A DNA stretch of 64,000 nucleotides from a virus. Below, piece by piece: positions 2,743 to 21,502 of this stretch. How positions within the stretch are numbered: the stretch's first letter is position 1; each line of letters starts with the position of its first letter. The notes beneath the pieces were generated by a model. That model did no database searches, was not told the origin of the DNA, and saw only the letters and a program-made list of their open reading frames with translations. The stretch covers positions 1 to 64,000 of the IMG/VR virus record IMGVR_UViG_3300021354_000450, one strand, 5' to 3'. The translations under genes were made by a program, and so were the position numbers.

Positions 2743-3285
2743 ATGAGTTTAAAAGATTTAACAAAAGATAAACATACAGAAGCAGAACATACAGCATTTA
2801 TGAAAGCTGTTTTTAAAAATGCAATGCCATTAAGTGTATGGGCAGATTTTACATATCAAAAATCAAATCTATATGCAAGTATTGAAACAGTTGCACGTGA
2901 CGCAGGGATTACATTAGATTTTTTAGAAATCGAACGTGCATTAAAATTGTATCATGATGCAAAAACAATGACAAACGGTAACTATCCTAAATTAAGAGCT
3001 GTCACAATTGAGTATAGTCGTTATTTGTTAGATTTAGTTGGTCAGACAGATAAAATCTTAGCACACTTATATGTATGGCATATGGGTGATTTACATGGTG
3101 GGCAAATGATTAAGAAAGTAATTGATGCTCCTCATACTAATTTAGACTTTGAAAACATTGAAGAACTTAAAACAAAGATTCGTTTAAAATTAAATGACAA
3201 TCTTGCTGAAGAAGCAAACGTTGCTTTTGATTGGGCAATTCGTATTATGAAAAGCTATGACGAAGAATTTTCAACAAATGAATGA
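2743..3285 (+). CDS. Heme oxygenase (biliverdin-forming)
   Basis: A 180-residue heme oxygenase. The N-terminal KDKHTEAEH stretch supplies the likely proximal heme-ligand histidine at about residue 11, and GDLHGGQMIKK corresponds to the distal helix, which in the family is usually GDLSGGQ; the Ser to His change is visible here. The enzyme opens heme to biliverdin, CO and free iron using reductant, typically ferredoxin. The next gene encodes a ferredoxin-dependent bilin reductase and overlaps its end, the same pairing known from cyanophages and other marine phages. The product can feed bilin synthesis and also releases iron. Confidence 0.93.
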   Translation: MSLKDLTKDKHTEAEHTAFMKAVFKNAMPLSVWADFTYQKSNLYASIETVARDAGITLDFLEIERALKLYHDAKTMTNGNYPKLRAVTIEYSRYLLDLVGQTDKILAHLYVWHMGDLHGGQMIKKVIDAPHTNLDFENIEELKTKIRLKLNDNLAEEANVAFDWAIRIMKSYDEEFSTNE

Positions 3286-3949
3286 AGTTTGGTCTAAAGT
3301 AATTTCATGTTCAGATGCAATTATTGAAAGGTTAAGCCATACAGGTGTTGAATCAACGGGCATCAATGATGCTCGTTTTCCTTGGAAAGATCGATTATAC
3401 AGCAGTCATATATATCGAAGGGCACACTTAAATATTGTCGATGCACGTGATTCACATAAATTGTGGATGATGCATTGTACAATATTTCCTCATTTACATG
3501 ATTCTAGTCCTATTTTTGGATTAGACATTATTGCTGGACCAACTCGTATCAGTGGTGCATTTCATGATTTCTCTAAAACAGGAAATCCTAACCATTCTAT
3601 GATGCATTGGTTTGATCAACGTGTTGTAGATCTAAATTGGAAGAAAGAACGAGAATTGCCAGACTGGGCAAAACAAATCTTTAGTCCTGCAATGGTTGCA
3701 ATAGGAGCTGTTGATAATTTAGATGAGATTGATCAACTTATTGAAGTTGTATTAACAAACTTAGATTATTATTTAGAAAATGTTGGTTCAACTCAAGATG
3801 ACTTATTTGGATATATAGATGAGCAAAATCGGTATTGCTATTATCAAAAACAGAATCCACATAATCCTCGTGTAATGCAAAGTTTAGGATTAAGTGAAGA
3901 AGATGCTAAATCTTTTGTTGAGGAAATAATGTTTCCAGAAATAAGATAA
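3278..3949 (+). CDS. Ferredoxin-dependent bilin reductase (PcyA/PebS/PcyX family)
   Basis: A 223-residue member of the HY2 family of ferredoxin-dependent bilin reductases, which reduce biliverdin to coloured open-chain tetrapyrroles. The core block HDSSPIFGLDIIAG followed by GAFHDFSKTG matches the conserved substrate pocket, including the two Asp residues after IFG and in HDFS. Phage members (PebS in cyanophages, PcyX from marine phage contigs) make phycoerythrobilin; linkage to a heme oxygenase in an otherwise non-cyanophage-like setting favours the PcyX type, but I cannot prove this by eye. I chose the ATG at 3278, overlapping heme oxygenase by 8 bases; an in-frame ATG at 3257 is possible. 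Confidence 0.88.
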   Translation: MNEVWSKVISCSDAIIERLSHTGVESTGINDARFPWKDRLYSSHIYRRAHLNIVDARDSHKLWMMHCTIFPHLHDSSPIFGLDIIAGPTRISGAFHDFSKTGNPNHSMMHWFDQRVVDLNWKKERELPDWAKQIFSPAMVAIGAVDNLDEIDQLIEVVLTNLDYYLENVGSTQDDLFGYIDEQNRYCYYQKQNPHNPRVMQSLGLSEEDAKSFVEEIMFPEIR

Positions 3950-5343: not shown

Positions 5344-5370
5344 CTCCTTTGTAAATATACAACAAAGGAG
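5344..5370 (+). promoter_or_regulatory. Hairpin covering the csgF ribosome-binding site
   Basis: CTCCTTTGT (5344-5352) pairs perfectly with ACAAAGGAG (5362-5370) across a 9-base loop. The 3' arm contains the AAGGAG Shine-Dalgarno of csgF, 7 bases from its ATG, so the hairpin would hide the ribosome site of the first curli gene. A TGTAAATA late-like box lies inside the loop side. Confidence 0.55.
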
Positions 5371-5377
5371 CATTTTA

Positions 5378-5866
5378 ATGACTAAAGTATTTGGGTTTTT
5401 TTTATTTCTTGCATCTTCACTTTCATTTGCAAATGAACTTCAGTTTCAATTTAATAGTCCTTCATTTAGTGGGATTGGTTATAGTTCTCATATTTTAACT
5501 ATCCAACAATTAGAAAATCAAGCAGTTTCTCAAAATCAAGCAGCCGCACAATCATTAGCAGCACAAGCAGCCGCAGCTTCTGCAAATACTCCACAAGCAC
5601 AATTTGTTTCAAATTTACAATCAAGAATTTATTCACAACTTGCTCAACAAATTACAAATAGTTTATTTGGCGATAATGGTTCATCAAGTTGTACAACTTC
5701 TACTACATGTCCAAGTGGTGAAGTAGATGTTGGCGGAAATACAATTTCTTGGAAATTAGGTGTAACAGGTACACCAGATGCAGGAATAATTATTATTCAT
5801 ATTCAAAGTGATTCTACAGGTCAATATACAAATATGAAAATCCCAGTTGGAACTTTTTATTTTTAA
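5378..5866 (+). CDS. csgF: CsgF-like curli assembly factor
   Basis: A 162-residue secreted protein. The first 18 residues form a Sec signal peptide ending SFANE. The mature N-terminus NELQFQFNSPSFSGIG matches the CsgF N-terminus (FQFRNPNFGG-type), the part that plugs into the CsgG pore in the curli system. The middle is an Ala/Gln-rich linker. The C-terminal part ends in a beta-rich GTFYF. In bacteria CsgF caps the outer face of the CsgG pore and positions the nucleator. csgG follows 2 bases later, supporting the call. The gene's ribosome site is inside a hairpin. Confidence 0.88.
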   Translation: MTKVFGFFLFLASSLSFANELQFQFNSPSFSGIGYSSHILTIQQLENQAVSQNQAAAQSLAAQAAAASANTPQAQFVSNLQSRIYSQLAQQITNSLFGDNGSSSCTTSTTCPSGEVDVGGNTISWKLGVTGTPDAGIIIIHIQSDSTGQYTNMKIPVGTFYF

Positions 5867-5868
5867 TT

Positions 5869-6669
5869 ATGAAAATACTTATATTATTAGTTTTATTATT
5901 ACAAGGTTGTGCAACAGGTAGTGCATTGAATAATTTAATAACCGGAAATCAATTTGATGATCCTGTTAACGAAAGTACTAGCAAATATCTTAATAAACAA
6001 GAAAATCATTTAAAACCTCCTGCTAATGGCCCAGTTCCTGTTGCAGTTTATGGATTCTTAGATAAAACAGGACAACGAAAATCAGTAACCGGTATTGCTA
6101 GTCTTAGTTCTGCTGTTACACAAGGTGGTGAAGGTTATTTAATTAAAGCACTTCAAGATGTAGGTGACTCGAGATGGTTTAGAGTTGTTGAACGTGTTGG
6201 TCTTGAAAATTTAGTTAAAGAAAGACAAATGATAAGACAAATGCGTGAACAGTTTCAAGGTAAAGATGCAGTTGCTTTACCACCTATGACATTTGCTGGT
6301 ATTATTGTCGAAGGATCAATAGTTGGATATGATTCAAATACGATTACAGGTGGTGCTGGCGTAAGAATTTTTGGTATTGGTGCTGATACACAATATCAAA
6401 GTGATACAGTTACAATTTGTTTAAGAACTGTTTCTGTTAATAATGGTGAAGTTTTAACAAGTGTGACTATAACAAAAACTGTATTGAGCTATATTGATAG
6501 AGTTGGTCTTTTGAAATTTATTGATGCTGGAACAATGGCAATTGAAGCAGAAGTTGGAGGATCAATAAATGAAAGTATTAATAGAGCAACTAATAAAGCA
6601 ATACAAGCCGCAGTTTTAGAAACAATTAAAGAAGGTGTCCGTAAAGGGTTATGGTCATTTAAAGACTAA
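5869..6669 (+). CDS. csgG: CsgG-like outer-membrane curli secretion pore
   Basis: A 266-residue lipoprotein very close in length to bacterial CsgG (277). The leader has a lipobox LLLQGCATG with lipidated Cys at about residue 14. The domain pattern PVPVAVYGFLDKTGQRK, then RWFRVVERVGLENLVKERQ, and the membrane-hairpin region follow the CsgG fold, and the C-terminal helix ends GVRKGLWSF. CsgG forms a nonameric pore that exports unfolded curlin subunits through the outer membrane. Marine T4-like phages are known to carry CsgG homologues. Here it is directly flanked by csgF and curlin-repeat genes, which argues for a complete export unit. No CsgE was seen. Confidence 0.93.
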   Translation: MKILILLVLLLQGCATGSALNNLITGNQFDDPVNESTSKYLNKQENHLKPPANGPVPVAVYGFLDKTGQRKSVTGIASLSSAVTQGGEGYLIKALQDVGDSRWFRVVERVGLENLVKERQMIRQMREQFQGKDAVALPPMTFAGIIVEGSIVGYDSNTITGGAGVRIFGIGADTQYQSDTVTICLRTVSVNNGEVLTSVTITKTVLSYIDRVGLLKFIDAGTMAIEAEVGGSINESINRATNKAIQAAVLETIKEGVRKGLWSFKD

Positions 6670-6684
6670 GGAGCGAAATAAAAA

Positions 6685-7473
6685 ATGAAAAAAATAATGT
6701 TAACTTTGTTGTTTATATCACAATCTGTATTTGCAGGAGATATATTAACAACAGGTCCAAATAATGTATATATTGAACAAATAGGTACATCAAATACAAT
6801 TACAATTGAACAGGTTGGTGGAACTAATAGTGTTGGCGGAATAACTGGAACAACTTCAGTTGATGCAGCTGGTGTAACAACTTTAACTCCGGCAGCCGCT
6901 AGTACATTAAACTATGCAATGATTATTGGTAGCAATAATATTTTTGCAATTACTCAACATGGAAATAACGATTGGGCACAATATAGTATTTTTGGAAATA
7001 ACAATACTTATAATAGCACAGTTACTGGAAGCAATAACCAAACTCAATTAACAATCGGTGATCAGTTAAATTCAAACAATTTACACAATATAATTAATGA
7101 AACATTTTCTGGTGACAGCAACATGTCTTTTCATCACATTATTGGAAATTATATTACAAGTAACTTAACAGTAGCTGGAAATCTTAACCAAGTTACGCAA
7201 AATTTAAATGGTGTTACCGGTACTGCAAGTTTTTCTGATTCAAGTAACATTAATGTTTCTGGTAATAGCAATATTTTAAATACACAACAAACTGATGTCG
7301 GTATTCATTCAGTAACTGAAACCGTTGTTGGAAGTAATAATGCAATTTATACTCAACAACAAGGTGCAAATAATACTAATGTTGATATTAACACACAAGG
7401 AAGTTATAACACAGTTACTATTAGAACAAGTTCTTCTTCAATAGTATCTCCACAATCTGCTATCGCAAGATAA
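6685..7473 (+). CDS. Curlin-repeat protein (CsgA/CsgB-like amyloid subunit)
   Basis: A 262-residue secreted protein: an 18-residue signal peptide ends VFAGD. The mature part carries repeated N-x-I/V-x-Q-x-G-x-x-N curlin motifs, for example NVYIEQIGTSNTITIEQVG, and later NAIYTQQQGANNTNVDINTQG. Such repeats stack as a beta solenoid and polymerise as amyloid in curli. It is probably the major or nucleating fibre subunit exported by the adjacent CsgG. A GGAGCGAAA ribosome site lies upstream. The protein ends immediately before the next gene with a one-base overlap, so it is cotranscribed and coupled. Confidence 0.9.
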   Translation: MKKIMLTLLFISQSVFAGDILTTGPNNVYIEQIGTSNTITIEQVGGTNSVGGITGTTSVDAAGVTTLTPAAASTLNYAMIIGSNNIFAITQHGNNDWAQYSIFGNNNTYNSTVTGSNNQTQLTIGDQLNSNNLHNIINETFSGDSNMSFHHIIGNYITSNLTVAGNLNQVTQNLNGVTGTASFSDSSNINVSGNSNILNTQQTDVGIHSVTETVVGSNNAIYTQQQGANNTNVDINTQGSYNTVTIRTSSSSIVSPQSAIAR

Positions 7474-8558
7474 TGTTTTGGGTTGTTTTATTCTTAGTAT
7501 CTATTAATGTATATGCTGATATTGGTTCAGTTGTAGATACTAAGGGTAACTCCTGCCAAATAGAACGTAACAAACAAAAACTTTCAGGTGAAAAAGGTTC
7601 AAAAATTGAAAGTATGGACATTTATTCAACAGCCGGCTGTGTTGCAAATATTACCTTTAAAGATGATACTAAAGTAAAGATTAATGAAAATAGTAGACTT
7701 CTTATTGATGATTTTGTTTTTGATCCTAAACAATCAGATGCCAGTAAACTTGCACTTAAGATAGGAATAGGAACTGTTCGGTATGCTTCCGGACAAATTG
7801 CTAAGAATAATCCACAACAAGTAGGAATAAAAACTCCAACTGCTACAATTGCTGTTAGAGGCACAGATTTCTCAATGACTGTTGATGAAACTGGTCAATC
7901 ATTAATAATGCTAGTACCAAGTTGCAAAGATGAAAAAGATGTTAAAAAATATGAATTACAAGAAAACACTTGCAAAGTTGGTCAAATTGATGTTACAACA
8001 CTTAGTGGTACTGTTTCACTTGATAAAGCTTTTGAAGCAACCTTTGTGCAAAGTGCAACAAATAATCCCACTCCACCTATTGTTGTTAATATTGTTGAAA
8101 CAAAAATCAGTAATAATTTAATAATAGTAAAGCCACCTGAAGTTCAAAATGCAATTAAAGAAGCTAAGAAAACGCAAAAAGATAAAGAAAATCAATCAAT
8201 GGAAGATGAAGTTACCCGAAGGTTAGCTACTCAAATTTCTAAAAATTCTGAAAGTTCTGATGCAAGAATATTACAATTAATGGAAGAAGCAAGAAATTCT
8301 AGGTGTAATCCAACAACCGGTATTTGTGTATCTTGGGAACATCCTAGTACAGAAACACAACAAAGTAAAGGTAAAGGTACTGCTTTTAGAATATTAGGTA
8401 CAGAGGATTATGCTGAAGTTAAGACACTTGGATACTCTTCAAATACTTCTGTTACAATAATTCAAAATTTTTCAACAGCAACAATGTTAATCGGAGATGG
8501 TTCGCCGGGCGGAAACAAAATTACTATTTTACAAAATCCTGGAGTTATTAAACCATGA
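7473..8558 (+). CDS. FecR-domain periplasmic protein
   Basis: A 361-residue exported protein with a 14-residue signal peptide (ends VYAD). A FecR-type domain spans about residues 35-150: a strand-rich region with CVANITFKDDTKVKINENS and the family hallmark KTPTATIAVRGTDFSM near residue 120. The second half is a charged helical stretch and a Cys-containing tail. In bacteria, stand-alone FecR-domain proteins are often found beside CHASE2 signalling proteins and surface-fibre genes, as is the case here. It overlaps both neighbours by 1-4 bases, so it belongs to the curli operon. The role is likely sensing or anchoring; this is inferred. Confidence 0.82.
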   Translation: MFWVVLFLVSINVYADIGSVVDTKGNSCQIERNKQKLSGEKGSKIESMDIYSTAGCVANITFKDDTKVKINENSRLLIDDFVFDPKQSDASKLALKIGIGTVRYASGQIAKNNPQQVGIKTPTATIAVRGTDFSMTVDETGQSLIMLVPSCKDEKDVKKYELQENTCKVGQIDVTTLSGTVSLDKAFEATFVQSATNNPTPPIVVNIVETKISNNLIIVKPPEVQNAIKEAKKTQKDKENQSMEDEVTRRLATQISKNSESSDARILQLMEEARNSRCNPTTGICVSWEHPSTETQQSKGKGTAFRILGTEDYAEVKTLGYSSNTSVTIIQNFSTATMLIGDGSPGGNKITILQNPGVIKP

Positions 8559-9682
8559 AATTCTTAATTTTATTTTTTATACTTTGTTCAAATCTTTATG
8601 CTGACGGTATGGCTGGTTTGAATTATACAGTTTATGCAGCAGGCGGTGCTACTCCAACAATGACAACTAATAGAACTGTTCTTGCTACAGGTGTTACAAC
8701 TTCACTCGATTATAATTGGGGTTCTGGTGTTGTTATGAATAGTGGAAGATCAGATGGTGTTATCATTCATTTTACCGGTAATGTATTATGGCCTGGTGTA
8801 AATGGTAGTGGAAACAAATCTATAACATTTTATGATAGAAGTGACGATGGCTTCTATATGACAATCAATAATACGTTAGTAATTAATAATTGGAAAGAAC
8901 AAGGGCCTGCAAATTATAATAGTTCCGGAACTTTAAGTTTAACAGCTGGTCAAGTTTATGCAATAGATATTTGGTATTATGAAAATGGAGGAGGAGCAGT
9001 TGTTCAACTTAATTGGAATATTGGAAATGGAATAGTTGTTATACCAACTGCAAATTTAGGAACATTGCCAACATTCTTTGCCCCTGTTTTATGTTGTGGA
9101 GGTTCATCTGCAAGTTTTGTTGCAAATGCAATTGATGTTGCTAATCTGCAAACATTTATTAATAGATCAACTGCGGATAGTGAAGTATATATTAAACAAA
9201 TTGGCACATCAAATACAATTACTGTTAATCAAACCGGAACTAAAAATAATTACGCAAAGTATATAGGAAATGGTTCTAATAATAATGTAAGTATCAACGA
9301 ATCTGCAACAAATTCAGCTGCATCTAATTATTCAACATTAAATATCGTAGGTAATAATAATTCAACATCTATTATTCAACAAAATTCTGGAACAGGAAGT
9401 AAACAAGTATCTTCTAATATTATCGGTGATAATAGTTCATTAATAATAAACCAATCTGGAACAGGTAGTCAGTATATTGAAACGACGTTAAATGGAAATA
9501 GTAAACATGTTGATATAAGTCAAGTTGGAGCTGGAAATCATATGGCAAATGTTACTTTATCTGGAACACCAGTTGATTTAAGTTTAACACAAAGTGGTAA
9601 TTTACAACAATCATTTTCGATCGATTTTAATAGTACAGCAGTTGGTGGTAGTCCTAAAATCACAGTCCAACAAGGACCTTGA
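8555..9682 (+). CDS. PA14-domain protein with curlin repeats
   Basis: A 375-residue secreted protein (signal peptide ends LYADG). Residues about 20-170 form a PA14-type beta-barrel: DDGFYMTINNTLVINNWKEQ and YYENGGGAVVQLNW are the typical PA14 signatures, a carbohydrate-binding fold. After a Cys-Cys-Gly-Gly linker, the C-terminal part carries curlin-type repeats such as VYIKQIGTSNTITVNQTG. The fusion suggests an adhesin that joins or caps the amyloid fibre and binds a glycan. It shares the IGTSNTIT repeat wording with the gene at 6685, so both are probably built from the same repeat source. Confidence 0.85.
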   Translation: MKFLILFFILCSNLYADGMAGLNYTVYAAGGATPTMTTNRTVLATGVTTSLDYNWGSGVVMNSGRSDGVIIHFTGNVLWPGVNGSGNKSITFYDRSDDGFYMTINNTLVINNWKEQGPANYNSSGTLSLTAGQVYAIDIWYYENGGGAVVQLNWNIGNGIVVIPTANLGTLPTFFAPVLCCGGSSASFVANAIDVANLQTFINRSTADSEVYIKQIGTSNTITVNQTGTKNNYAKYIGNGSNNNVSINESATNSAASNYSTLNIVGNNNSTSIIQQNSGTGSKQVSSNIIGDNSSLIINQSGTGSQYIETTLNGNSKHVDISQVGAGNHMANVTLSGTPVDLSLTQSGNLQQSFSIDFNSTAVGGSPKITVQQGP

Positions 9683-9683
9683 C

Positions 9684-9691
9684 ACTAAATA
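9684..9691 (+). promoter_or_regulatory. Late-like box ACTAAATA
   Basis: ACTAAATA sits 4 bases before the ATG of the small lipoprotein gene. It resembles the NATAAATA late box of T4-like phages with one change. Weak evidence. Confidence 0.25.
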
Positions 9692-9695
9692 TTTG

Positions 9696-9914
9696 ATGCT
9701 TAAGATTTTAATAGTATCAGTAATTTTTTTAACAGGATGTGCAACACAACACATTGCTGAACCTTTAAATGAATTTAAAATAATTCAACCACTTCCACAA
9801 AAACTTCCGTGTGATTATAAAATTGCCGGAAAATGCAAACAATCAACCGCAACAGAAATTTCTGGTGCAACAACATTAGGACATTTGAATGAAGAACCCA
9901 AAATTAATCCTTAG
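9696..9914 (+). CDS. Small lipoprotein of the curli operon
   Basis: A 72-residue lipoprotein. The start is the ATG at 9696, because the leader MLKILIVSVIFLTGCATQ then has a clean lipobox (LTGC, Cys near residue 15). The mature part contains a Cys pair (PCDYKIAGKCK) and is otherwise unstructured. It overlaps the cyclase gene by 26 bases, which argues for translational coupling. I do not recognise a family. Its position suggests an accessory of CsgG or an anchor for the FecR protein. Confidence 0.75.
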   Translation: MLKILIVSVIFLTGCATQHIAEPLNEFKIIQPLPQKLPCDYKIAGKCKQSTATEISGATTLGHLNEEPKINP

Positions 9915-11961
9915 ACAAATTTTAACAAGTCCATGGACCGCATTAATTACTTTGGCATTAATATTAAGTATTAGAATATCTGACCCTTCATTTGTAGAAT
10001 CAGTTAGATTAAGGTATTTTGATACATTAATTACAAGTAAAGAACAAACTGAAAACAATATTGTTACAGTCAACATTGATGAAGAATCATTAACAAAATA
10101 TGGACAATGGCCTTTCCCTCGCGGAGAATATGCTAAAATTATCGATGACTTATATTCAAAAAATGCAAGTTTAGTTGTTTGGAATATTCTTATGCCAGAT
10201 ACTGATCGTAGCAAGCAAGATGAAAAACTTGCAAAAGCATTTTCAAAATTTCCAGTTGTTTTAGGAAATGTTCCTTCACAACAAACAAAAAATCAACCAG
10301 TTGCACCTGGTAGTGTTGTTATTGGATCTGAATTTCAAAATCGTATTGTACAATATCCTGGACTTATTGCAAATATTCAAACATTAGAACTAAATGCAGC
10401 AGGTATTGGGACAACTAATACACTTCCTGAAATTGATGGAGTTAATAGACGTATTCCGCTTATTGTTTCTGTTAATGACCACATTTATCCGAGTTTGTCA
10501 ATAGAAACTGTTCGTGTTGCTGTAGACGAATCAACAGTTCAAGTAAAGTTAAATGAATTAGGTGTTGAAAAACTTAGAATACCAGCGATTGGTCCGATTG
10601 ATACAGATAACCTAGGACGTATTTGGATTGACTGGAGTCAACAACATCAATCATATAGTTTAGAACATTTACCAGATAGTCTTGAAGGTTCGATTGTTAT
10701 TGTCGGAACAAGTGCAGCTGGTTTAGGCAATCCAGTTCCGACAAGTATCGGAAGTGTTTGGCCTCAAGATATGCAAGCAACTGTTATTGGTACAATGCTT
10801 AATAAAGTAAATATTCAACGTCCTTATTGGGCCGATGCTGCTGAAGAAGGAATATTACTTGTTGCTAGCTTACTTCTTTTATTTTTAACAAGATGGATTT
10901 ATGTCGGATTAGCAAGTACAATCATTCTTACAGTTGGTGCAGTTGTGGGAAGTAAATTTGCATTTACTGAATATTTGTATTTGTTAGATGCAACTGTATT
11001 AGTTGGTGGAATTGTTCTTGTTGCGTTACATGCATATGGTGTTAAATTTGTAAGTGAATTTCTACAAAAACAACAAATTAAGAAACAATTTGGTAGTTAT
11101 GTTAATCCTACAATTGTTGAAAAGTTACAAAAAGATCCTAGCTTAATTAAACTAGGAGGAGAACGTAAAGAACTTTCAATTGTAATGACAGACCTTAGAG
11201 GTTTTACAACACTAGGAGAATCGTTTGGTGATGACGTTGAAGGACTGACTCAAATAATGAACGATTATATGACAGCATTAAGTGTACCTGTTTTAAAAAA
11301 TGATGGAACACTTATTAAATTTATTGGTGATGCAAGTTTACATGTGCATGGAGCTCCTTTAAACGATCCTGATCATGCAATAACCGCTGTTAAAACTGCA
11401 CAACAAATGATTAAAGCAATTGATGAATTTAACGTTGAACTAACAGCAAAAGGTCGTCCGCCAGTTGGTATGGGTGCAGGTGTTAATACAGGTGAAACAC
11501 TAATCGGAAACATTGGTTCAAAAGATAAGTTTGGATATGATGTATTAGGTGATAGTGTAAGTACTGCTGCACGGTTAGAAGGTCAAACTAAATCTTATGG
11601 TGTTTTGTTAATTATAGGTCCTAAAACAAATGAACTTGTTAAAGATAAAATATTTACATTAGAACTTGATAATATTGCTGTTAAAGGTAAGACAATTGGA
11701 TTAAGAATATATACTCCATTATTAACAGAAGATGTTGATTTAGAATCTTATGAAGAAAGCAGAAAATTTCATAATGAAATGTTAGACGCTTATCGTAACC
11801 AACAGTTTGATGAAGCAATCAAAATGTCAAGACTCCTTATGAAACATTTTGATGGTCAAATGGAACATAGCTACGAGCTATGGATCGAAAGATGCGAACA
11901 AATGAAGAAAACAAACCTACCTATGATTTGGGATGGAATTTTTAGAGCCACATCAAAATAA
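9889..11961 (+). CDS. CHASE2-domain class III adenylate/guanylate cyclase
   Basis: A 690-residue membrane enzyme. A first membrane segment (about residues 13-30) is followed by a periplasmic CHASE2 sensor domain (about 35-310), three membrane segments (about 320-385) and a cytoplasmic class III cyclase domain (about 425-600). Metal-binding Asp residues are visible in VMTDLRGFTTL (about 433) and KFIGDASLHVHG (about 476); the Lys of KFIGD fits purine recognition. In GDSVSTAARLE (about 553) the usual catalytic Asn of VNxAARLE is Ser, while the Arg is kept, so activity is uncertain. It would make cAMP or cGMP in response to an extracytoplasmic signal, and closes the curli operon. Confidence 0.9.
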   Translation: MKNPKLILRQILTSPWTALITLALILSIRISDPSFVESVRLRYFDTLITSKEQTENNIVTVNIDEESLTKYGQWPFPRGEYAKIIDDLYSKNASLVVWNILMPDTDRSKQDEKLAKAFSKFPVVLGNVPSQQTKNQPVAPGSVVIGSEFQNRIVQYPGLIANIQTLELNAAGIGTTNTLPEIDGVNRRIPLIVSVNDHIYPSLSIETVRVAVDESTVQVKLNELGVEKLRIPAIGPIDTDNLGRIWIDWSQQHQSYSLEHLPDSLEGSIVIVGTSAAGLGNPVPTSIGSVWPQDMQATVIGTMLNKVNIQRPYWADAAEEGILLVASLLLLFLTRWIYVGLASTIILTVGAVVGSKFAFTEYLYLLDATVLVGGIVLVALHAYGVKFVSEFLQKQQIKKQFGSYVNPTIVEKLQKDPSLIKLGGERKELSIVMTDLRGFTTLGESFGDDVEGLTQIMNDYMTALSVPVLKNDGTLIKFIGDASLHVHGAPLNDPDHAITAVKTAQQMIKAIDEFNVELTAKGRPPVGMGAGVNTGETLIGNIGSKDKFGYDVLGDSVSTAARLEGQTKSYGVLLIIGPKTNELVKDKIFTLELDNIAVKGKTIGLRIYTPLLTEDVDLESYEESRKFHNEMLDAYRNQQFDEAIKMSRLLMKHFDGQMEHSYELWIERCEQMKKTNLPMIWDGIFRATSK

Positions 11962-12294
11962 TTAACTTTCACTAGCGGCAGCAGATTTTGTGTCGTCGCT
12001 AGTTTCTGTTTTATTAATTCTAGAATTAATTTCTTTTTCAGCTTCGACTCGTTCGTATTCAATAGTTTTACCACGTAAATGTAATACAGTATTAACTTTT
12101 TGATTTAATCTAATAAGATCATTATCTAACATACGAATACGATCAATTAGTGCAATTAATACAGTATTTGCGTCACTTATAACCGGTTTTACTTCTTTTG
12201 TAGCCCATTCCCATACATATTTGATAATAAAACCCATACCTACTGCCATTACTATAGGAAAGCCGTATTTGTTTACTAATTCTACAATATCCAT
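11962..12294 (-). CDS. Small membrane protein with coiled coil
   Basis: A 110-residue protein with one N-terminal membrane segment (residues about 10-30), then a helical, probably coiled-coil, stretch and a Ser/Ala-rich tail. It resembles the protein at 12704-12985 in layout (membrane helix, then a helix with heptad-like RIRMLDNDLIRLNQKVN), suggesting duplication or a common fold. It converges on the cyclase gene with no spacer. A holin, spanin-like or membrane-anchoring role is possible; no family is recognised. Confidence 0.65.
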   Translation of the reverse strand: MDIVELVNKYGFPIVMAVGMGFIIKYVWEWATKEVKPVISDANTVLIALIDRIRMLDNDLIRLNQKVNTVLHLRGKTIEYERVEAEKEINSRINKTETSDDTKSAAASES

Positions 12295-12564: not shown

Positions 12565-12720
12565 TTATCCTCTTACATAAGAAAGAGGTAATTCAATATG
12601 CCATCTTTCATATCCAATTTCTATTCCAAATACAATTCCAACAATTAATCCAAATATAACAGCAATAAAAAGTTCAGGTGTGGACCAAACCCATTTTTTA
12701 TAATTAGTCTCTTCGCGCAT
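12565..12720 (-). CDS. Tiny single-helix membrane protein
   Basis: A 51-residue protein with one strong membrane helix (LFIAVIFGLIVGIVFGIEIGY). I chose the second of two adjacent ATG codons (12720) because GGGAAGA then sits at a good distance; 12723 is possible. It overlaps the upstream gene by about 17 bases. Function unknown; membrane or lysis role inferred from context only. Confidence 0.5.
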   Translation of the reverse strand: MREETNYKKWVWSTPELFIAVIFGLIVGIVFGIEIGYERWHIELPLSYVRG

Positions 12721-12985
12721 CATTCTTCCCGTCAGCACGAGCAATACGATCAACGTCAGGTTTTAAACCAAGAGCATTTGATACGATTGTATCTATTCTT
12801 ACAACATCATGATTCATCGTTTTAACACGGTTATCTAATGCGGTAATGATTCCAGCCATGCCTTTGATTGATCCTAATACACCTTGTAACAGTAGTTTGA
12901 TAGTTAGATACACAAAGTATCCACCTGCTAATGCTGCTGCTACAGGCATGCCAAGATCGCCTATAATTTTAAAGATATCACCCAT
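12704..12985 (-). CDS. Small membrane protein with coiled coil
   Basis: A 93-residue protein: a glycine-rich membrane segment (residues about 10-40) followed by a helix with regular hydrophobic spacing (ALDNRVKTMNHDVVRIDTIVSNAL) and a charged tail. It parallels the protein at 11962-12294. A TGGAGTAGACA ribosome site precedes the start and a GTAAATA box lies further upstream on this strand, hinting at late expression. Function unknown. Confidence 0.6.
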   Translation of the reverse strand: MGDIFKIIGDLGMPVAAALAGGYFVYLTIKLLLQGVLGSIKGMAGIITALDNRVKTMNHDVVRIDTIVSNALGLKPDVDRIARADGKNDARRD

Positions 12986-13064: not shown

Positions 13065-14006
13065 TTACCAGATAAAGTTTTGTTTATAATAGTCTACTAT
13101 TTTTGCAAGTTCGATGTTAAAGTTTGCTTCAGTTTTCCATCCTAACGCTTTGAGTTTGCTATCATCAATTGCATAACGAACATCTTGCCCTAATCGATTA
13201 AGTGGTGTGATATAATTTTCAACATCTGTTCTTCCATTATATAATTCTAATATCTTTTTTACAACTGTTAAATTATCAATTTCATAATTTCCGGAAATAT
13301 TATAAATCTCATTAACTTTCCCTGAATTAATAATAGTAATAACAGCATTAGCAGTATCTTCAGCATGTAACCAAGTACGCACAGGAGTACCATTATTATG
13401 TAACTCTATATTCTTACCTACAGTTAGATACTTAACTGACTTTGGAATAAGTTTTTCAACATATTGTCCAATGCCGTAGTTATTAGTAGGACGTACAATA
13501 ACGTACGGTAAGTCAAATGTACGAGCCCAAGCAAGTACTAACATATCTGCCGCGGCCTTTGTAGCAGAGTACGGATTACTAGGTTTAAGCAAATCTGTTT
13601 CAGTATGGAAGCCACTAATAATATCACCGTATACTTCATCTGTTGAAAAATGTAGCAACACTGGCATTTTAATCTTAGGTTTTTGATTAATCAATTTTAG
13701 TATGTGATGAATACCGTCAATGTTCGAATGTACAAAATGATCCGAACGTTCAATTGAGTTATCAACGTGTGTCTCTGCGGCTGTGTTAATAAAGTAATCG
13801 CAATCGTATAACATTTCTAAATCGTTAATGTCGCTTTGAATAAATTTAAAGTTAGTATATTCTTTAAACTTAGATAAGAATTGAATGTTACTAGCATAAG
13901 TTAATTTGTCTACACCGATTACATACCACCCAAGTTCCAAACATTGACGAGTTACGTGTGTTCCTATAAATCCTAAACAACCTGTTACATATACGATTTT
14001 TTTCAT
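13065..14006 (-). CDS. dTDP-glucose 4,6-dehydratase-like SDR
   Basis: A 313-residue extended short-chain dehydrogenase. It has the NAD-binding GCLGFIGTHV near the N-terminus, DKLTYASN and AAETHVDNSI that are typical of dTDP-glucose 4,6-dehydratase (RmlB), the catalytic STDEVYGD stretch and the YSATKAA active-site YxxxK. The enzyme makes a 4-keto-6-deoxy nucleotide sugar, the entry to most deoxy sugars. It is the last gene of the minus-strand sugar cassette and overlaps the upstream glycosyltransferase by 4 bases. The nucleotide carried by the sugar (dTDP or CDP) cannot be fixed by eye. Confidence 0.85.
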   Translation of the reverse strand: MKKIVYVTGCLGFIGTHVTRQCLELGWYVIGVDKLTYASNIQFLSKFKEYTNFKFIQSDINDLEMLYDCDYFINTAAETHVDNSIERSDHFVHSNIDGIHHILKLINQKPKIKMPVLLHFSTDEVYGDIISGFHTETDLLKPSNPYSATKAAADMLVLAWARTFDLPYVIVRPTNNYGIGQYVEKLIPKSVKYLTVGKNIELHNNGTPVRTWLHAEDTANAVITIINSGKVNEIYNISGNYEIDNLTVVKKILELYNGRTDVENYITPLNRLGQDVRYAIDDSKLKALGWKTEANFNIELAKIVDYYKQNFIW

Positions 14007-14890
14007 ATTACTCCTTTGTAAATAAAATTTTGTAAACTATCTAGATTATCCACAATCCACTTAGGATGTGTTTCCTCTGTAATTTCTACTTTCTGTAATG
14101 CATAATCATGAAACAGTCTTGCTACTGCTTCTTCTTTAGTTGTATGATCAAACTTTGTTTTCATTCCAGAATATACGTCTCTAGAATGTGCCCAACTACG
14201 TTGTTTCTCTAGTACAAGTTCTCCATCAGTTGGATCTAAGAAAGTAAAGTGCCATCCTGCGTTAAGTACAGCAGGGTGTGTACTAATACTTGCTTGACGA
14301 ATAGTTGAAGGCATAATCAACTTAAAGTTGCTGTATTCAGTTAATGTTCCGACCATATGTTGCGTCCAATGCTTGTGCAATAAATTCATTTTATAAGCAT
14401 AGATATAAACTTGCAAAAAGAAAATAGGACGAAGACCGCGATTATCTCTAAAATTCTTATCAGCAAATGCCGGCAAGCAACTTTCAAAAGCAGACTTTCT
14501 TAAAAGTTCATCTAGACACGAAATATAAACAATGTCGTCATCCTGTGCACCTATTTCTGCCAATACCTGTGTTATGTAGTTGTGCTGAAAATGATCTCTT
14601 TTCCAGTCCATAGGATTTGGCGTATGCTGATATGCTTCTAAAGTATGCTGATCGAGTAAATGAGGATACTTAGGCATTTCTGTAGCAAAACTTTCAATAC
14701 ATCTGTATTCAATTTTACTAGCATAGGGTTTAAACCTCTCGTGATCAAACTTAGGTTGTTTTGGTAATCCTGTGTGCGTTTCTGCAGCTTCAACTACAAT
14801 AAACTTGTCAACAAAATCCCAATGAGATTTAAGTCTAATCTCATATAGATCATTTTCATTTAAAAACATACAGCAATCATATACTGCCAT
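14003..14890 (-). CDS. Glycosyltransferase family 17-like
   Basis: A 295-residue protein matching the GT17 family (N-acetylglucosaminyltransferase-like), with the characteristic N-terminal DCCMFLNENDLYEIRL, the FIVVEAAETHTG block and DDIVYISCLDELLR. GT17-like genes are frequent in marine phages and in surface polysaccharide clusters. It would add a sugar to a glycan in the cytoplasm. It lies between two nucleotide-sugar SDR genes with overlapping or touching ends, so it belongs to the same transcript. Confidence 0.8.
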   Translation of the reverse strand: MAVYDCCMFLNENDLYEIRLKSHWDFVDKFIVVEAAETHTGLPKQPKFDHERFKPYASKIEYRCIESFATEMPKYPHLLDQHTLEAYQHTPNPMDWKRDHFQHNYITQVLAEIGAQDDDIVYISCLDELLRKSAFESCLPAFADKNFRDNRGLRPIFFLQVYIYAYKMNLLHKHWTQHMVGTLTEYSNFKLIMPSTIRQASISTHPAVLNAGWHFTFLDPTDGELVLEKQRSWAHSRDVYSGMKTKFDHTTKEEAVARLFHDYALQKVEITEETHPKWIVDNLDSLQNFIYKGVI

Positions 14891-15697
14891 TCAACCCTCT
14901 GTAAAATATTGTTTGATACTTTCTTTGATGCCAACTAAGGGCAATCCAACGACAGCTAATTTCTCTCCACTTCCGGTATAGTTTATATTGCTAACACTTT
15001 GGATATTTACTGTTGTAGTAACTCCGTGTGCCTGACGGAACATTTCAAGTAGCTCACTAACTGTATTCTTTTTTTGATAAACACAGTTAATGTCCTTCAT
15101 TGGCTCATTGTTACTATTTAAGTAATGTGAAACTACCTGGAGGAAATCTTGGAGACCAAAGTAATCTACTTGTCTATCGATTATGTCAATAGTTTTTTGT
15201 TGTGTAAATCTACTGAATAATCTACGAGGTAATTCCTTAACTCCAAAGCAACTAAACAATCTAAGATTGTAGAAGCCTTCTTTACCTAAACATAGTCTAG
15301 CAATTACATTCTTACTGTATCCGTAACTGTCTTTTGGATTAACTTCTAAGATGCGTTCTTCGGGAGTATTGTCTAAGGAATCTTCTCTGCCAAATTCACT
15401 GCCGCTGGCAATATTAATAAACCGATTGAATAAATGACTGTTATTATAAAAGTTTAAAAACACATTCAAGTTGTTTTGAATGTCTTCATAGCACCGATCT
15501 TCAGCACGGTCATTGCTAGTCATTGTAGCACAGTTGATTACTACATCGGGGCGATTAGTAGTAAGCCATTCAGTGACTTGAAGAAAATTAGTAAGATCTA
15601 CGTCTTTTCTAGTGACAGATATTTTTTCGCAGTTTTTTAAATTACGAACAAGATATCCGCCAATAAAACCACTTCCACCTAAGACTGCTACTCGCAT
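14891..15697 (-). CDS. NAD-dependent epimerase/dehydratase (SDR)
   Basis: A 268-residue extended SDR with GGSGFIGGYLV at the N-terminus, VINCATMTSND, and a YGYSKN active-site YxxxK-type motif. It looks like an RmlD/epimerase-type reductase of nucleotide sugars, somewhat short for the family. Its substrate is not predictable by eye. The stop of the aldolase gene overlaps its start by one base. It could reduce the 4-keto group of the branched or deoxy sugar made by the cassette. Confidence 0.8.
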   Translation of the reverse strand: MRVAVLGGSGFIGGYLVRNLKNCEKISVTRKDVDLTNFLQVTEWLTTNRPDVVINCATMTSNDRAEDRCYEDIQNNLNVFLNFYNNSHLFNRFINIASGSEFGREDSLDNTPEERILEVNPKDSYGYSKNVIARLCLGKEGFYNLRLFSCFGVKELPRRLFSRFTQQKTIDIIDRQVDYFGLQDFLQVVSHYLNSNNEPMKDINCVYQKKNTVSELLEMFRQAHGVTTTVNIQSVSNINYTGSGEKLAVVGLPLVGIKESIKQYFTEG

Positions 15698-16737
15698 TAT
15701 ACCAACGTTAAGTTAGATCCTGCTACATTTTCTTTTGCGGCAGCAAGTTCTTGTGCTACTTCAAAGATTAAACTTTCTTGTCCGGCAACTGCTTTACGCT
15801 TTCCTAGTTCCATAAAAATGTCTCTAGGGTCTACATTGTAATCTTTTGCCGCAGTCGCAACGTGTTTAGCAAAGCCAGAAAATACTCCACTTAATCCACT
15901 AATAATAGACATTGGGCTACTAAACGGCGGAACGGGATTAAACTCTTTGCCAGCAAGATCAGCCGCATCAAGCAACTTGTACAAGTCGATACCTGTATGA
16001 TAACCTAAACGATGTAGCACAGCAATCAATACTTCTAATTGTGTATTACCTGCGCCGGCACCAAACCCACGGATACTGGCATCAAGGATAGAAGCACCGG
16101 CACGGATAGCGGCAACGCTATTAGCAGTACCCATACCTAAATTGTTGTGGCCATGAAACCCAACTGGAATGTCAAGTCCTTCAACGAGTGCTGTAATACG
16201 TGCAGTAACGTCCTCTAGGAAGTATGTTCCTGACGAATCCATAATCACTAATGCTTGAGCACCGTAGTTCTGCATCTTGCGAGCTTCTTCTACAAGTTTG
16301 TCAATACTGGCCATGTGACTCATCATTAGAATACCATATGCTGTTTTATTTGCTTTACGAACATACTCAATATGACGTTGGCAAATGTCTGCTTCAGTGA
16401 CATGTGATGCTACTCGAAATACATCAACCCCTAAATCAATTGCTTTGATTAGATCTCGCTTGATTGTAGCAAAGCCTGGAATAACGTGCATTGACAAGTT
16501 TGCGTTCTTTAAGTTTTCACGAGCAATAGTAATAATTCTTTCATCGCTTACTAATGCTTCGCCAACTAGCATAGAACTTGCGCCAAGCCCGTTTCCGTGT
16601 CCTATTTCTATGTTTGGCACTCCCGCGGCATCTGCTGCAATACAATACTTACGAATGTTGTCTTCGGTTAGTTGATGACGAACTGCGTGATTGCCGTCTC
16701 GTAAAGTAGGATCGTGAATAACAATGTGTTTGTTCAT
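15697..16737 (-). CDS. 4-hydroxy-2-oxovalerate aldolase-like
   Basis: A 346-residue DRE-TIM aldolase. The start HDPTLRDGNHAVRHQL is the family signature (catalytic Arg-Asp and metal-binding Asp), HGHNNLGMG holds the metal-binding His pair, and SIRGFGAGAGNTQLE is the usual C-terminal block. The enzyme splits or forms 4-hydroxy-2-oxoacids using pyruvate and an aldehyde. It is paired with the acetaldehyde dehydrogenase that normally forms a channelling complex with it. In this surface-sugar setting the pair is more likely to provide a carbon unit for a sugar than to degrade aromatics; that is inference. Confidence 0.92.
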   Translation of the reverse strand: MNKHIVIHDPTLRDGNHAVRHQLTEDNIRKYCIAADAAGVPNIEIGHGNGLGASSMLVGEALVSDERIITIARENLKNANLSMHVIPGFATIKRDLIKAIDLGVDVFRVASHVTEADICQRHIEYVRKANKTAYGILMMSHMASIDKLVEEARKMQNYGAQALVIMDSSGTYFLEDVTARITALVEGLDIPVGFHGHNNLGMGTANSVAAIRAGASILDASIRGFGAGAGNTQLEVLIAVLHRLGYHTGIDLYKLLDAADLAGKEFNPVPPFSSPMSIISGLSGVFSGFAKHVATAAKDYNVDPRDIFMELGKRKAVAGQESLIFEVAQELAAAKENVAGSNLTLV

Positions 16738-16738
16738 A

Positions 16739-17623
16739 TTAATGTTTCCTTGCTTGAGCCATTAGCTCTAATACTTTAATTGCTGCACAGTTAATAATAT
16801 CTAAATTACCTGCATACTGTGGCAAGAAGTCTCCTGCGCCAAGAACTTTAACAGTTACAATAACTGTATCGTCTTTAACGATAGGTGGAACTAATAGTTG
16901 ATATCCGGGAACATATTTGCGAATTGTTTCAACCATGTCGTTTACTGATTCTGTAATACGTGCCAAGTCTGGATTTTTAATCTTGGCGTAGATAGTTGTG
17001 TCCATATCAATCGGAGGACTTGCTGGATTAAGGATTAAGATTGCCTTACTACGTTTGGCACCACTGAACTTACGTAATGCTTCTTCTGTGGTGTTTACAT
17101 ACTCATCTAAGTTTTGTCTAGTAGCAGGTCCAGCACTTAATGAAGCAATACTAGATGCGACTTCAACATATTCAATATTTTTGTGAACACGGGCTAGAGC
17201 CGCCGCAATAGGAACAGTAGTTTGGCCGCCGCAGGTAATCATATTGACATTAACAACATTATCATTTCCCCATGTGCCTGTAGCAAGTGCTGGTACACAA
17301 GTTTCCCCTAGTTTAGCAGGAGTCATGTCGATGACTGGTTTGCCTAATTCTTTTAGTACCCGCCAATGTTCGACGTGTGCTTGTGCAGATGTGCAGTCAA
17401 CAACAATATCGCAAATACTAGGATTATTAATAATTGCTTGAATGCCTTGATCTGTAATAGGTACGTTTAGTGACTTAGCACGGAGCATACCTTTCGAGTC
17501 TAATGTACGTCCGGCAAATAAAGTACAAACAAGATTTTCAGATCTTGTAATCTTAATTAAAAGATCTGTACCAATATTGCCTGTACCTATAATTGCTATT
17601 TTAACTTTATCGTGAGTAGTCAT
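16739..17623 (-). CDS. Acetaldehyde dehydrogenase (acylating)
   Basis: A 294-residue enzyme of the MhpF/BphJ family. IAIIGTGNIGTDL is the NAD-binding start, MITCGGQTTVPI contains the catalytic Cys, and the C-terminal LGAGDFLPQYAGNLDIINCAA matches the family. It interconverts acetaldehyde plus CoA and acetyl-CoA. I chose the ATG at 17623, one base after the stop of the ThDP gene, over an upstream in-frame start that would overlap that gene. It sits next to its usual aldolase partner. Confidence 0.92.
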   Translation of the reverse strand: MTTHDKVKIAIIGTGNIGTDLLIKITRSENLVCTLFAGRTLDSKGMLRAKSLNVPITDQGIQAIINNPSICDIVVDCTSAQAHVEHWRVLKELGKPVIDMTPAKLGETCVPALATGTWGNDNVVNVNMITCGGQTTVPIAAALARVHKNIEYVEVASSIASLSAGPATRQNLDEYVNTTEEALRKFSGAKRSKAILILNPASPPIDMDTTIYAKIKNPDLARITESVNDMVETIRKYVPGYQLLVPPIVKDDTVIVTVKVLGAGDFLPQYAGNLDIINCAAIKVLELMAQARKH

Positions 17624-17624
17624 A

Positions 17625-19442
17625 TTACTCTTTTGATTTTTCGTGAACACCGATGATCATTGCTTTTTCTAACGCATCGCGTGGAATTAGCGGACCAAGG
17701 TCTTCTAATGGACTGGATACTTGAGTACCGTCTTCTTTAATTATCCAACCTAACTTTGGAGTAAATGGTTGCTTAGGATGCATGAATACTTCGCAAATAA
17801 CGGGACCATTATGTGCTTGCACTTTGGCAATAATTTCATCGCAGTTGTCCCACGATCTGATTTGATAAGCTGGAATGTCAAATGCTACTGCTAACTTACT
17901 GTAGTCTGGACATGTTACTCCAGTTGATTTGTCTACACCTGTACGACTATCTTTAAACAATGCGTTCTGTGTGTGTTTGATCATTAAGTATCCATCGTTA
18001 TTAAAGATGAAAAGTTTAATAGGCAACTTGTGATGTACCATTGTCTGTAATTCTTGTAAGTTCATCATCATGCCACCATCGCAGTTTAAACACATAACTT
18101 CGCCACGGTCAGTAGCAAAGCTCGCACCAATTGCGCCAGGAAGTCCATAACCCATTTCGCCTAAACCTGTACTTGTCATTAAGCGTTGGCCTGGTTTAAA
18201 TTTTAATACTTGATGTCCACTTAACAGCGCAGTACCCATATCAGTTACAACAATCTGATCAGATTTAAAATGTTTATTGAGACGTTCCATGAATAAATAC
18301 GAGTTAATAAATCCATCTTTATCTTCGTGTTCTTTATCAACCCAAGGATAGTCTTTACGATATACATTACATTGGTCGATCCATTCTTTTTTGCTAGTCA
18401 TATCAACTGTGGCTATTTTTGCTAATAACATGTCAATAAACACTCCAGCATCGCATACAATACTTTCACGTGTGCGTGGCTTATTTTTAGCCGCTTCAAT
18501 AGCATCAATGTCCACAACGTCAATAGCCGCATCTCGAGCAAGTTCTGACAAGTTGTAACCAATCTGCGGAATTGCTAGTCGTGTGCCAATTGCTAAAACG
18601 TAACTGCTGTTCTGTAGTACAAAATTTGCACATCTCTGTCCATAAACGCCAGCACGACCATATACTAATGGATGATCGCTGTCAACCATGTCAATCCCTG
18701 CCCAACTTACAATTGCAGGAGATCCTAATTTTTCCAACAGCTCTGGAATACGATGTTTCGCACCTGCAAGACGAATGCCATGTCCTAACCAAAGCACAGG
18801 ACGAGGATTACTTATTAGACTTTGAACTACACGATCAATCTGACTTTCTAGTTCTAAGGTCTCGTAGCTCTTGGCAGGCACAGTAGCAAACTCATCGCAC
18901 ATCGCAGGATCTACTATGCTACTTTGTATGTCCATAGGAATTTCGACCCACACTGGTCCTGGACGTTGATCTAAAGAAATATAAGATGCTTTTTGTAATT
19001 CGTATTTTGTTTGCAATGGATCGACAACTCGAGTAGCATACTTGGTAACTTTTTTAACCATGTCGACGCTATCATAACCTTGTACTCCCCACATACGATA
19101 AGGACTGTGTGGTTGTGTGTGTTTTGAGTTTTCATTTCCTGAAATAATCAATCCAGGAATGCTGTCTGCCCAAGCAGAAACTACGCCAGTTACTCCATTA
19201 GTTGATCCAGCACCTGTTGTTAGTAAACAAGCGGCAAGTTTTCCTGTAGTACGATAGTAAGTTTGCATAGCCATTGTTGCGGCTTGCTCATGATGAACAC
19301 AGACAATTTCTGTAAAACCTCGTTTAGCAATGGCCTCAAAAATATGAACATCACCAGCACCAATAATGCCAAATGCGTGTTCGATACCTAGGTTCTCTAG
19401 GCATTCTGCGATAAGGTCTGCGACTTTAACTTTATTTGTCAT
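17625..19442 (-). CDS. ThDP-dependent enzyme, acetolactate synthase-like
   Basis: A 605-residue thiamine-diphosphate enzyme with the three expected domains. HHEQAATMAMQTYYRTTGK carries the cofactor-activating Glu; the ThDP/Mg motif is GEVMCLNCDGGMMMN (GDGxxxN type). It resembles acetolactate synthase large subunits and YerE-type enzymes, which attach a two-carbon unit from pyruvate to a keto sugar. Presence beside an RfbH-like 3-dehydrase, as in yersiniose-type branched sugar synthesis, supports the second reading. No small regulatory subunit is nearby, which also argues against amino-acid synthesis. Confidence 0.85.
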   Translation of the reverse strand: MTNKVKVADLIAECLENLGIEHAFGIIGAGDVHIFEAIAKRGFTEIVCVHHEQAATMAMQTYYRTTGKLAACLLTTGAGSTNGVTGVVSAWADSIPGLIISGNENSKHTQPHSPYRMWGVQGYDSVDMVKKVTKYATRVVDPLQTKYELQKASYISLDQRPGPVWVEIPMDIQSSIVDPAMCDEFATVPAKSYETLELESQIDRVVQSLISNPRPVLWLGHGIRLAGAKHRIPELLEKLGSPAIVSWAGIDMVDSDHPLVYGRAGVYGQRCANFVLQNSSYVLAIGTRLAIPQIGYNLSELARDAAIDVVDIDAIEAAKNKPRTRESIVCDAGVFIDMLLAKIATVDMTSKKEWIDQCNVYRKDYPWVDKEHEDKDGFINSYLFMERLNKHFKSDQIVVTDMGTALLSGHQVLKFKPGQRLMTSTGLGEMGYGLPGAIGASFATDRGEVMCLNCDGGMMMNLQELQTMVHHKLPIKLFIFNNDGYLMIKHTQNALFKDSRTGVDKSTGVTCPDYSKLAVAFDIPAYQIRSWDNCDEIIAKVQAHNGPVICEVFMHPKQPFTPKLGWIIKEDGTQVSSPLEDLGPLIPRDALEKAMIIGVHEKSKE

Positions 19443-19451
19443 GTAAATCCT

Positions 19452-21478: not shown

Positions 21479-21502
21479 AAATTCCTAGAAATAATTACCG
21501 TT
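21440..21502. repeat. 63-bp direct repeat, copy 1
   Basis: This stretch spans the start of the GT34-like gene and the stop of the gene upstream. A copy with about 6 changes lies at 25220-25282 where no intact gene exists. Confidence 0.8.

Follow-up and report, generated by a model that had tools for sequence, protein, structure and literature searches.

We analyzed the first 64 kb (hereafter, the window) of a 141,321-base virus record of the IMG/VR database, IMGVR_UViG_3300021354_000450, and found that it contains, at positions 5378 to 11961, an operon of curli-type genes that ends in a gene for a predicted adenylyl cyclase. We propose that the operon is part of a mobile, late-expressed module in which type VIII (curli) secretion is combined with a sensing pair of cellular origin, which consists of a FecR-domain protein and a CHASE2-domain cyclase. 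In the reading that we favour, to which we give a probability of about 0.5, this late operon would produce an adhesive curli coat, and assembly or contact of the fibres would be signalled via FecR and CHASE2 to a cyclase producing cyclic AMP (cAMP).

The genes were identified by Pfam profile matches to the open reading frames (ORFs) of the window, supplemented with PHROG profiles for csgF and for the tm genes described below. A first-pass annotation, made from the letters alone, had listed genes for CsgF, CsgG, a curlin-repeat subunit, a FecR protein, a PA14-curlin fusion, a lipoprotein and a CHASE2-cyclase, all touching or overlapping. All seven are present in this order on the plus strand, with overlaps or spacings of 2–15 nt. 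They are csgF (5378–5866), encoding a homologue of the pore-associated chaperone (PF10614, 2.1e-9, exceeding the curated cut-off; phrog_35372, 3e-31); csgG (5869–6669), encoding a homologue of the outer-membrane pore lipoprotein (PF03783, 9.4e-48), of which the lipobox residue Cys14 is invariant across 20 relatives; cur1 (6685–7473), encoding a curlin-repeat subunit; fecR (7473–8558), encoding a periplasmic FecR-domain protein (PF04773, 5.8e-11); cur2 (8555–9682), encoding a PA14 head followed by curlin repeats (PF07691, 1.1e-11); a gene for a 72-residue lipoprotein (9696–9914; lipobox LTGC); and the gene for a CHASE2-sensor class III cyclase (9889–11961; PF05226, 4.5e-41; PF00211 (Guanylate_cyc), 1.3e-16). 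The small lipoprotein gene starts with ATG at 9696, overlaps the cyclase start with its 3' end, and has homologues in only a few close relatives (loci L003, L004 and L078). The profiles proposed for checking CsgF, CsgG, FecR, PA14 and CHASE2 thus all matched, with Pfam E values of 2.1e-9 to 9.4e-48. For the curlin repeat, the match is clear in relatives and stays below threshold in the two subunits of the window.

Next, we investigated how often these genes recur together. A cyclase-seeded scan of viral contigs yielded 350 relatives, and gene order was compared in 80 fetched IMG/VR loci. Most of them follow the order csgF-csgG-curlin-FecR-(second curlin)-cyclase; many contain insertions ahead of the cyclase gene, and in a few the cyclase gene is oriented opposite to the curli genes. 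When 31 cyclase records were searched whole, csgG was present in 16, and the records lacking csgG are short or begin no more than about 8 kb from the cyclase gene. Hence, neither of the outcomes that would have spoken against the first-pass annotation, failure of the CsgF or CsgG profiles or the genes not occurring together in any other phage, was observed, and the gene order is repeated in dozens of phage contigs. Among phage records, csgG was found only in HTVC008M (KC465899), Melnitz (MZ577096) and one unannotated record of 1.5 kb; 023Pt_psg01 was not among the csgG matches.

HTVC008M and Melnitz contain the same six genes as the window phage in the same order, with the cyclase gene last, and phage operons with csgF and csgG were reported in 2020 (PMC7029224) and 2022 (PMC9004378). 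Moreover, a type VIII secretion gene set with a cyclase was described in SAR11 podo- and myophages in 2022 (PMC9599517). Because these phages share the genes and their order, and because the papers describe such operons, the operon is of a kind already known, and such a set, complete with a cyclase, is not the advance over single curli genes that it was claimed to be. Nor does a subunit tipped with PA14 set the window phage apart, since the second curlin of HTVC008M also has a PA14-like head, which is unannotated there; a text search of the three papers (PMC9599517, PMC7029224 and PMC9004378) revealed no mention of PA14. What is new here is the predicted late switch, the tm1/tm2 pair, the swappable heads, the curlin-like tail of FecR and the pairing of FecR and CHASE2 in bacteria. 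Outside the module the window phage is only remotely related to HTVC008M and Melnitz, from which it also differs by the additional small lipoprotein and a linked heme oxygenase/bilin reductase pair. With bacterial curli systems (csgBAC/csgDEFG) the phage module shares CsgG and CsgF homologues and curlin-repeat subunits. It differs from them in lacking CsgE, in having gained FecR, the cyclase and the tm pair, and in carrying lectin heads on the second subunit. CsgG, CsgF and curlin-repeat subunits are the type VIII secretion components found in the window; for the CsgE gate, no PF10627 match was obtained in the whole record, and the E. coli control was positive. CsgE is reported to be non-essential for curli (PMC7029224).

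The matches to the curlin repeat (PF07012) have E values of 0.004 for Cur1 and 0.03 for Cur2. The repeat was detected in 17 of 24 Cur2 relatives (best, 5.2e-8), and 30 Cur1 relatives display a conserved ladder of Gln, Gly and Asn residues. An AlphaFold model of Cur2 (mean predicted local distance difference test score, pLDDT, 80.5) consists of a PA14 head followed by a regular ladder of about 14 short strands, and a Foldseek search matched the head to the sugar-binding PA14 domain of a Marinomonas adhesin (E ~7e-8). The type of head varies: among 35 long Cur2 proteins, PA14 is present in 9 and F5/8-type galactose-binding domains in about 10. Related heads are also found on ORFs with outer-membrane-barrel-like ends, located in or near the cur2 slot. 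The simplest reading is that this slot would be a cassette for the display of changing adhesive heads. Four loci (L002, L021, L056 and L072) encode, between fecR or cur2 and the cyclase gene, related secreted proteins of 660–790 residues ('ENEYIRAGVN..TTGTLGSGG'), which end in an aromatic residue, as outer-membrane barrels do.

The leader of csgF suggests when the operon may be expressed. Positions 5344–5370 contain an 8-bp inverted repeat, CTCCTTTG and CAAAGGAG, that brackets the sequence TAAATA (5352–5357), which lies in the loop of the resulting hairpin. The 3' arm of the hairpin contains the Shine-Dalgarno sequence of csgF, and the leader RNA hairpin has a calculated energy of -19.2 kcal/mol (z -3.9). 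The same layout, a late-promoter core inside a hairpin that sequesters the ribosome binding site, is used in T4 to prevent translation of genes e, soc, 49 and I-TevI before late transcription begins (PMC3014915, PMC2988022). We therefore predict that csgF is preceded by a late-only switch of the type present at the T4 lysozyme gene e. It differs from the T4 examples in that it contains the core TAAATA and not the full promoter TATAAATA, that it would govern a curli operon, and that it is predicted from sequence.

TAAATA is located within 55 bases upstream of the start in 39 of 54 loci for csgF and in none of 54 for csgG; corresponding numbers are 2/59 for cur1 and 2/61 for fecR, and among other ORFs 195 of 911 have it. 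At the cyclase gene, which is frequently separated, TAAATA is present in 40 of 82 loci. Among distinct leaders, TAAATA is present in 59 of 96 for csgF versus 110 of 798 controls, and the ribosome site is paired across TAAATA in 35 of 96 versus 16 of 798. The stem sequences are highly variable among the csgF leaders; the arrangement of hairpin and TAAATA is kept. A gp55-like ORF is encoded in the same record. The full T4 late promoter TATAAATA occurs six times in the window, which is below chance, and never at the operon, so that only the TAAATA core proved informative; a scan for sigma-70 promoters gave a count similar to that in shuffled sequence. An Rfam search of positions 1–26000 gave no match, and hence there is no known riboswitch in that region. 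The possibility that TAAATA flanked by inverted repeats is a general device of this phage was rejected, as the rest of the record has no excess of this configuration (5 versus 9.8 in shuffles).

The module extends beyond the coordinates given above, because two further genes on the minus strand belong to it: tm1 (11962–12294) and tm2 (12704–12985), which encode small membrane proteins, that of tm2 having the C-terminus DARRD. The two proteins are paralogous and present in nearly every locus; their genes immediately precede csgF in the same orientation or lie beyond the cyclase gene on the opposite strand. The latter applies to the window; in HTVC008M and Melnitz, the only phage records with tm2, the homologues lie directly upstream of csgF. 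When tm2 alone was used as the query, genes of the curli module were present at every one of the 41 loci recovered with full 10-kb flanks. TAAATA is present upstream of 94 of 129 tm2-type genes and 6 of 138 tm1-type genes, which suggests that tm2 and tm1 form, in this order, a second, probable late unit. The pair may also be what was called a 'histidine kinase' preceding csgF in the podophages of PMC9599517, which is short, sometimes double and in the same place; the window contains no histidine kinase at that position. Among the ORFs of the window, only Hsp20 and the module genes, tm1 and tm2 included, have homologues in HTVC008M at an E value threshold of 1e-6. Since csgG and tm2 are 47–50% identical to their HTVC008M homologues, while replication genes elsewhere in the record reach 24–35%, the module seems to be exchanged as a whole among phages that are only distantly related in other respects. 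Profiles of T4 Gp20 and Gp23 were uninformative for typing the window phage.

The tm proteins bear on another possible role of the module, that of a lysis device, which the authors of the Melnitz study hypothesized (PMC9004378). CsgG and CsgF would then form a late gated pore or a pinholin-like trigger in which Tm1 and Tm2 participate, with curlin or FecR as gate or plug. Seventeen of 28 tm members matched phrog_4898 (holin), weakly (best, 1.1e-4), and the best match of the family to Pfam YvrJ is 0.012; the lack of a detectable CsgE gate is in line with this role, and a lysozyme-type switch is typical of late genes that must stay off early (PMC3014915). However, the holin match of Tm1 spans only about 20 residues, a pore in the outer membrane alone gives no access to peptidoglycan, and this role gives no reason why the module retains two curlins, exchangeable lectin heads and a cyclase. 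Late expression through the predicted switch would be compatible with a coat as well as with lysis. We hold a coat to be likelier, because the curlins and lectin heads otherwise lack an explanation, and consider a lysis device unlikely.

The FecR protein has an N-terminal signal peptide, as read from its sequence, followed by a FecR domain only. Its model matches the fold of the periplasmic domain of PupR in Foldseek and also an adhesin anchor (5ix9; 63 columns, E 0.012). No anti-sigma part was found in the protein, and no match to region 4 of extracytoplasmic-function (ECF) sigma factors (PF08281) in the record. A function as iron-responsive anti-sigma regulator was ruled out, because both the cytoplasmic part and a partner sigma factor are missing. 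These results also argue against the suggestion (PMC7029224, PMC9599517) that the module serves nutrient or iron uptake, with an ungated CsgG pore admitting larger solutes and FecR responding to iron. The lack of CsgE and the heme oxygenase/bilin reductase pair upstream of the module agree with uptake; strictly late expression, in contrast, would come too late to feed replication, and the curlin subunits and lectin heads would again have no explanation. We regard uptake as very unlikely.

The C-terminus of FecR resembles the ends of curlins. A strict strand-Gln C-terminus is present in 78 of 103 FecR tails versus 11 of 1445 other ORFs, and the final Gln is invariant (30 of 30). A profile of the tail matched that of Cur1 with an E value of 0.0015, compared with 0.17–0.94 for shuffled columns; this weak profile match and the strand-Gln ending suggest that FecR ends in a curlin-like strand.

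In the cyclase, the catalytic residues D435, K477, D481 and R562 (the metal-binding Asp pair, the purine-binding Lys and the transition-state Arg) are conserved in 83 of 83 sequences. Positions 551/558 are either Asp/Ser or Thr/Asn, which defines two subgroups. In class III cyclases, the conserved Lys combined with Asp or Thr favours cAMP over cGMP, and cAMP is thus the favoured product of the predicted enzyme. The usual transition-state Asn is replaced by Ser in 43 sequences, including that of the window, which leaves the predicted cyclase's rate uncertain.

CHASE2 sensors with cytoplasmic outputs are known from bacteria. In S. meliloti, the outer-membrane protein NsrA activates CHASE2 cyclases (PMC13001267), and CyaD1 lacking its CHASE2 domain produces cAMP constitutively (PMC5498481). 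In Burkholderia, an operon of FecR and a CHASE2-kinase regulates biofilm formation (PMC5192318). The Burkholderia BiofilmReg system (PMC5192318) and S. meliloti CyaD/CyaK (PMC13001267) resemble the phage protein in having a CHASE2 sensor in the inner membrane and an output domain in the cytoplasm, which is a kinase in the Burkholderia pair and a cyclase in the phage. As in the phage module, bacterial FecR/CHASE2 pairs have a periplasmic FecR-domain protein encoded near the CHASE2 sensor; the phage pair differs by its union with a curli operon and the curlin-like FecR tail.

To trace the origin of the module, we examined the 80 genome loci with the greatest similarity to phage CsgG, six alphaproteobacterial CsgF regions and 20 alphaproteobacterial genomes. 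In 11 of the 20 genomes, versus 0.2 expected, the best CHASE2 gene has a FecR gene no more than 5 kb away, and because of this adjacency we regard FecR/CHASE2 as an existing cellular pairing. Four of the six CsgF regions contain csgF, csgG and curlin together, and none of the six has FecR or cyclase matches within about 10 kb. None of the true bacterial curli loci examined has this pairing, and the phage module thus combines two systems of cellular origin. Among the 80 loci, FecR and the cyclase stand beside csgG only in phage-like contigs of metagenome-assembled genomes (MAGs), and these candidates for a bacterial source of the whole operon (L094–L096 and L124; partially L097, L101–L103 and L109) were rejected. 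Their CsgF scores are about 147–186 bits, as in phages, compared with about 20–60 in true bacteria, most have the tm pair, and the gene list of L096 looks phage-like. We take all of them to be probable misbinned phage contigs. The MAGs concerned are assigned to Flavobacteriaceae, Rhodobacteraceae, Pirellulales, Maricaulis, Pelagibacter, Synechococcus and Saprospirales, and such contigs are a trap for studies of the origin of these genes.

As bacterial FecR/CHASE2 pairs exist without curli, the cyclase and FecR might be passengers unrelated to the fibre, with cAMP acting independently on host metabolism. The cyclase gene's own TAAATA and its opposite orientation at some loci are also consistent with this. 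Nevertheless, the linkage of the cyclase with csgG has been held across many divergent phages and the FecR tail resembles curlin ends, and we judge the passenger explanation quite unlikely.

The analysis shows the identities, order and recurrence of the genes, the linkage of the tm pair, the layout of the csgF leader, the variety of heads and the neighbourhood of FecR and CHASE2 in bacteria; that fibres form and are exported, that the module senses and has a cAMP output, and that the phage benefits are inferences. A coat with feedback could be produced in four steps. First, read-through messages would fold the hairpin and hide the ribosome site of csgF; messages from a T4-type late promoter within the hairpin would lack its 5' half, and therefore the operon would be translated only late, which is a prediction here; T4 e, soc, 49 and I-TevI are the demonstrated cases. 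Second, Cur1 and Cur2, exported by Sec, would pass the CsgG/CsgF pore in the outer membrane, as homology suggests. Third, Cur1 would build the fibre and Cur2 present an interchangeable sugar-binding head, giving an adhesive cell coat. Fourth, periplasmic FecR would bind the exporter or the fibre with its curlin-like C-terminus and signal to the CHASE2 domain, altering cytoplasmic cAMP. The possible benefits are that cells or released virions are held together or that rival phages are blocked; the data favour neither. A more elaborate version, a phage-specific closed-loop fibre machine that moves as a unit, in which a late-locked, lectin-headed amyloid coat has its state read by the FecR strand and relayed by CHASE2 to host cAMP, with the tm pair as a further component, is put forward only tentatively.

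Several observations weigh against a late, sensing coat. About 39% of the csgF leaders lack TAAATA, and the absence of CsgE means that the pore may be ungated. Homology of the FecR tail to curlin is weak (hhalign probability 16.5%). The record encodes no receptor binding cyclic nucleotides, so cAMP would have to act on host targets. The Cur2 protein of Melnitz has no head, and neither do 25 of 63 Cur2 clusters, which are short; the head is therefore dispensable. Clumping was not seen in cultures infected with Melnitz (PMC9004378), and the amyloid, pore and cyclase activities are predictions for every phage copy.

The surroundings of the module contain further genes of interest. GroEL, Hsp20 and ClpS-like genes are present in a row at 278–2734. 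They are followed, shortly upstream of the module (2743–3949), by genes for a heme oxygenase (PF01126, 4e-13) and a ferredoxin-dependent bilin reductase (PF05996, 7e-18), a phage cassette of the PcyX/PcyA type. On the minus strand, positions 13065–22279 contain a surface-sugar-like cluster, unusual in a phage, with genes for a thiamine pyrophosphate enzyme, a DmpG-like aldolase, an apparent acylating aldehyde dehydrogenase, epimerases and a DegT-type aminotransferase. Overlapping genes for a SufC-like ABC ATPase and a SufBD-core protein, i.e., phage-borne iron-sulphur assembly genes, are located at 46303–47821, and a gene for a subtilase-family peptidase (61186–62856; PF00082, 1e-29) adjoins those of repeat-rich tail-fibre-like proteins.

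Competing guesses have been made about phage curli genes, namely sibling capture (proposed in PMC7029224), exclusion, uptake and lysis. Specific points that can be tested in the cultured phages HTVC008M and Melnitz come from the predicted late switch, the exchangeable sugar-binding heads, the tail of FecR and the tm pair. If the proposal is true, the bacterial FecR/CHASE2 pairing would gain a concrete candidate for its ligand, and a virus would furnish abundant aquatic bacteria, which lack such a structure themselves, with an adhesive amyloid coat capable of sensing.

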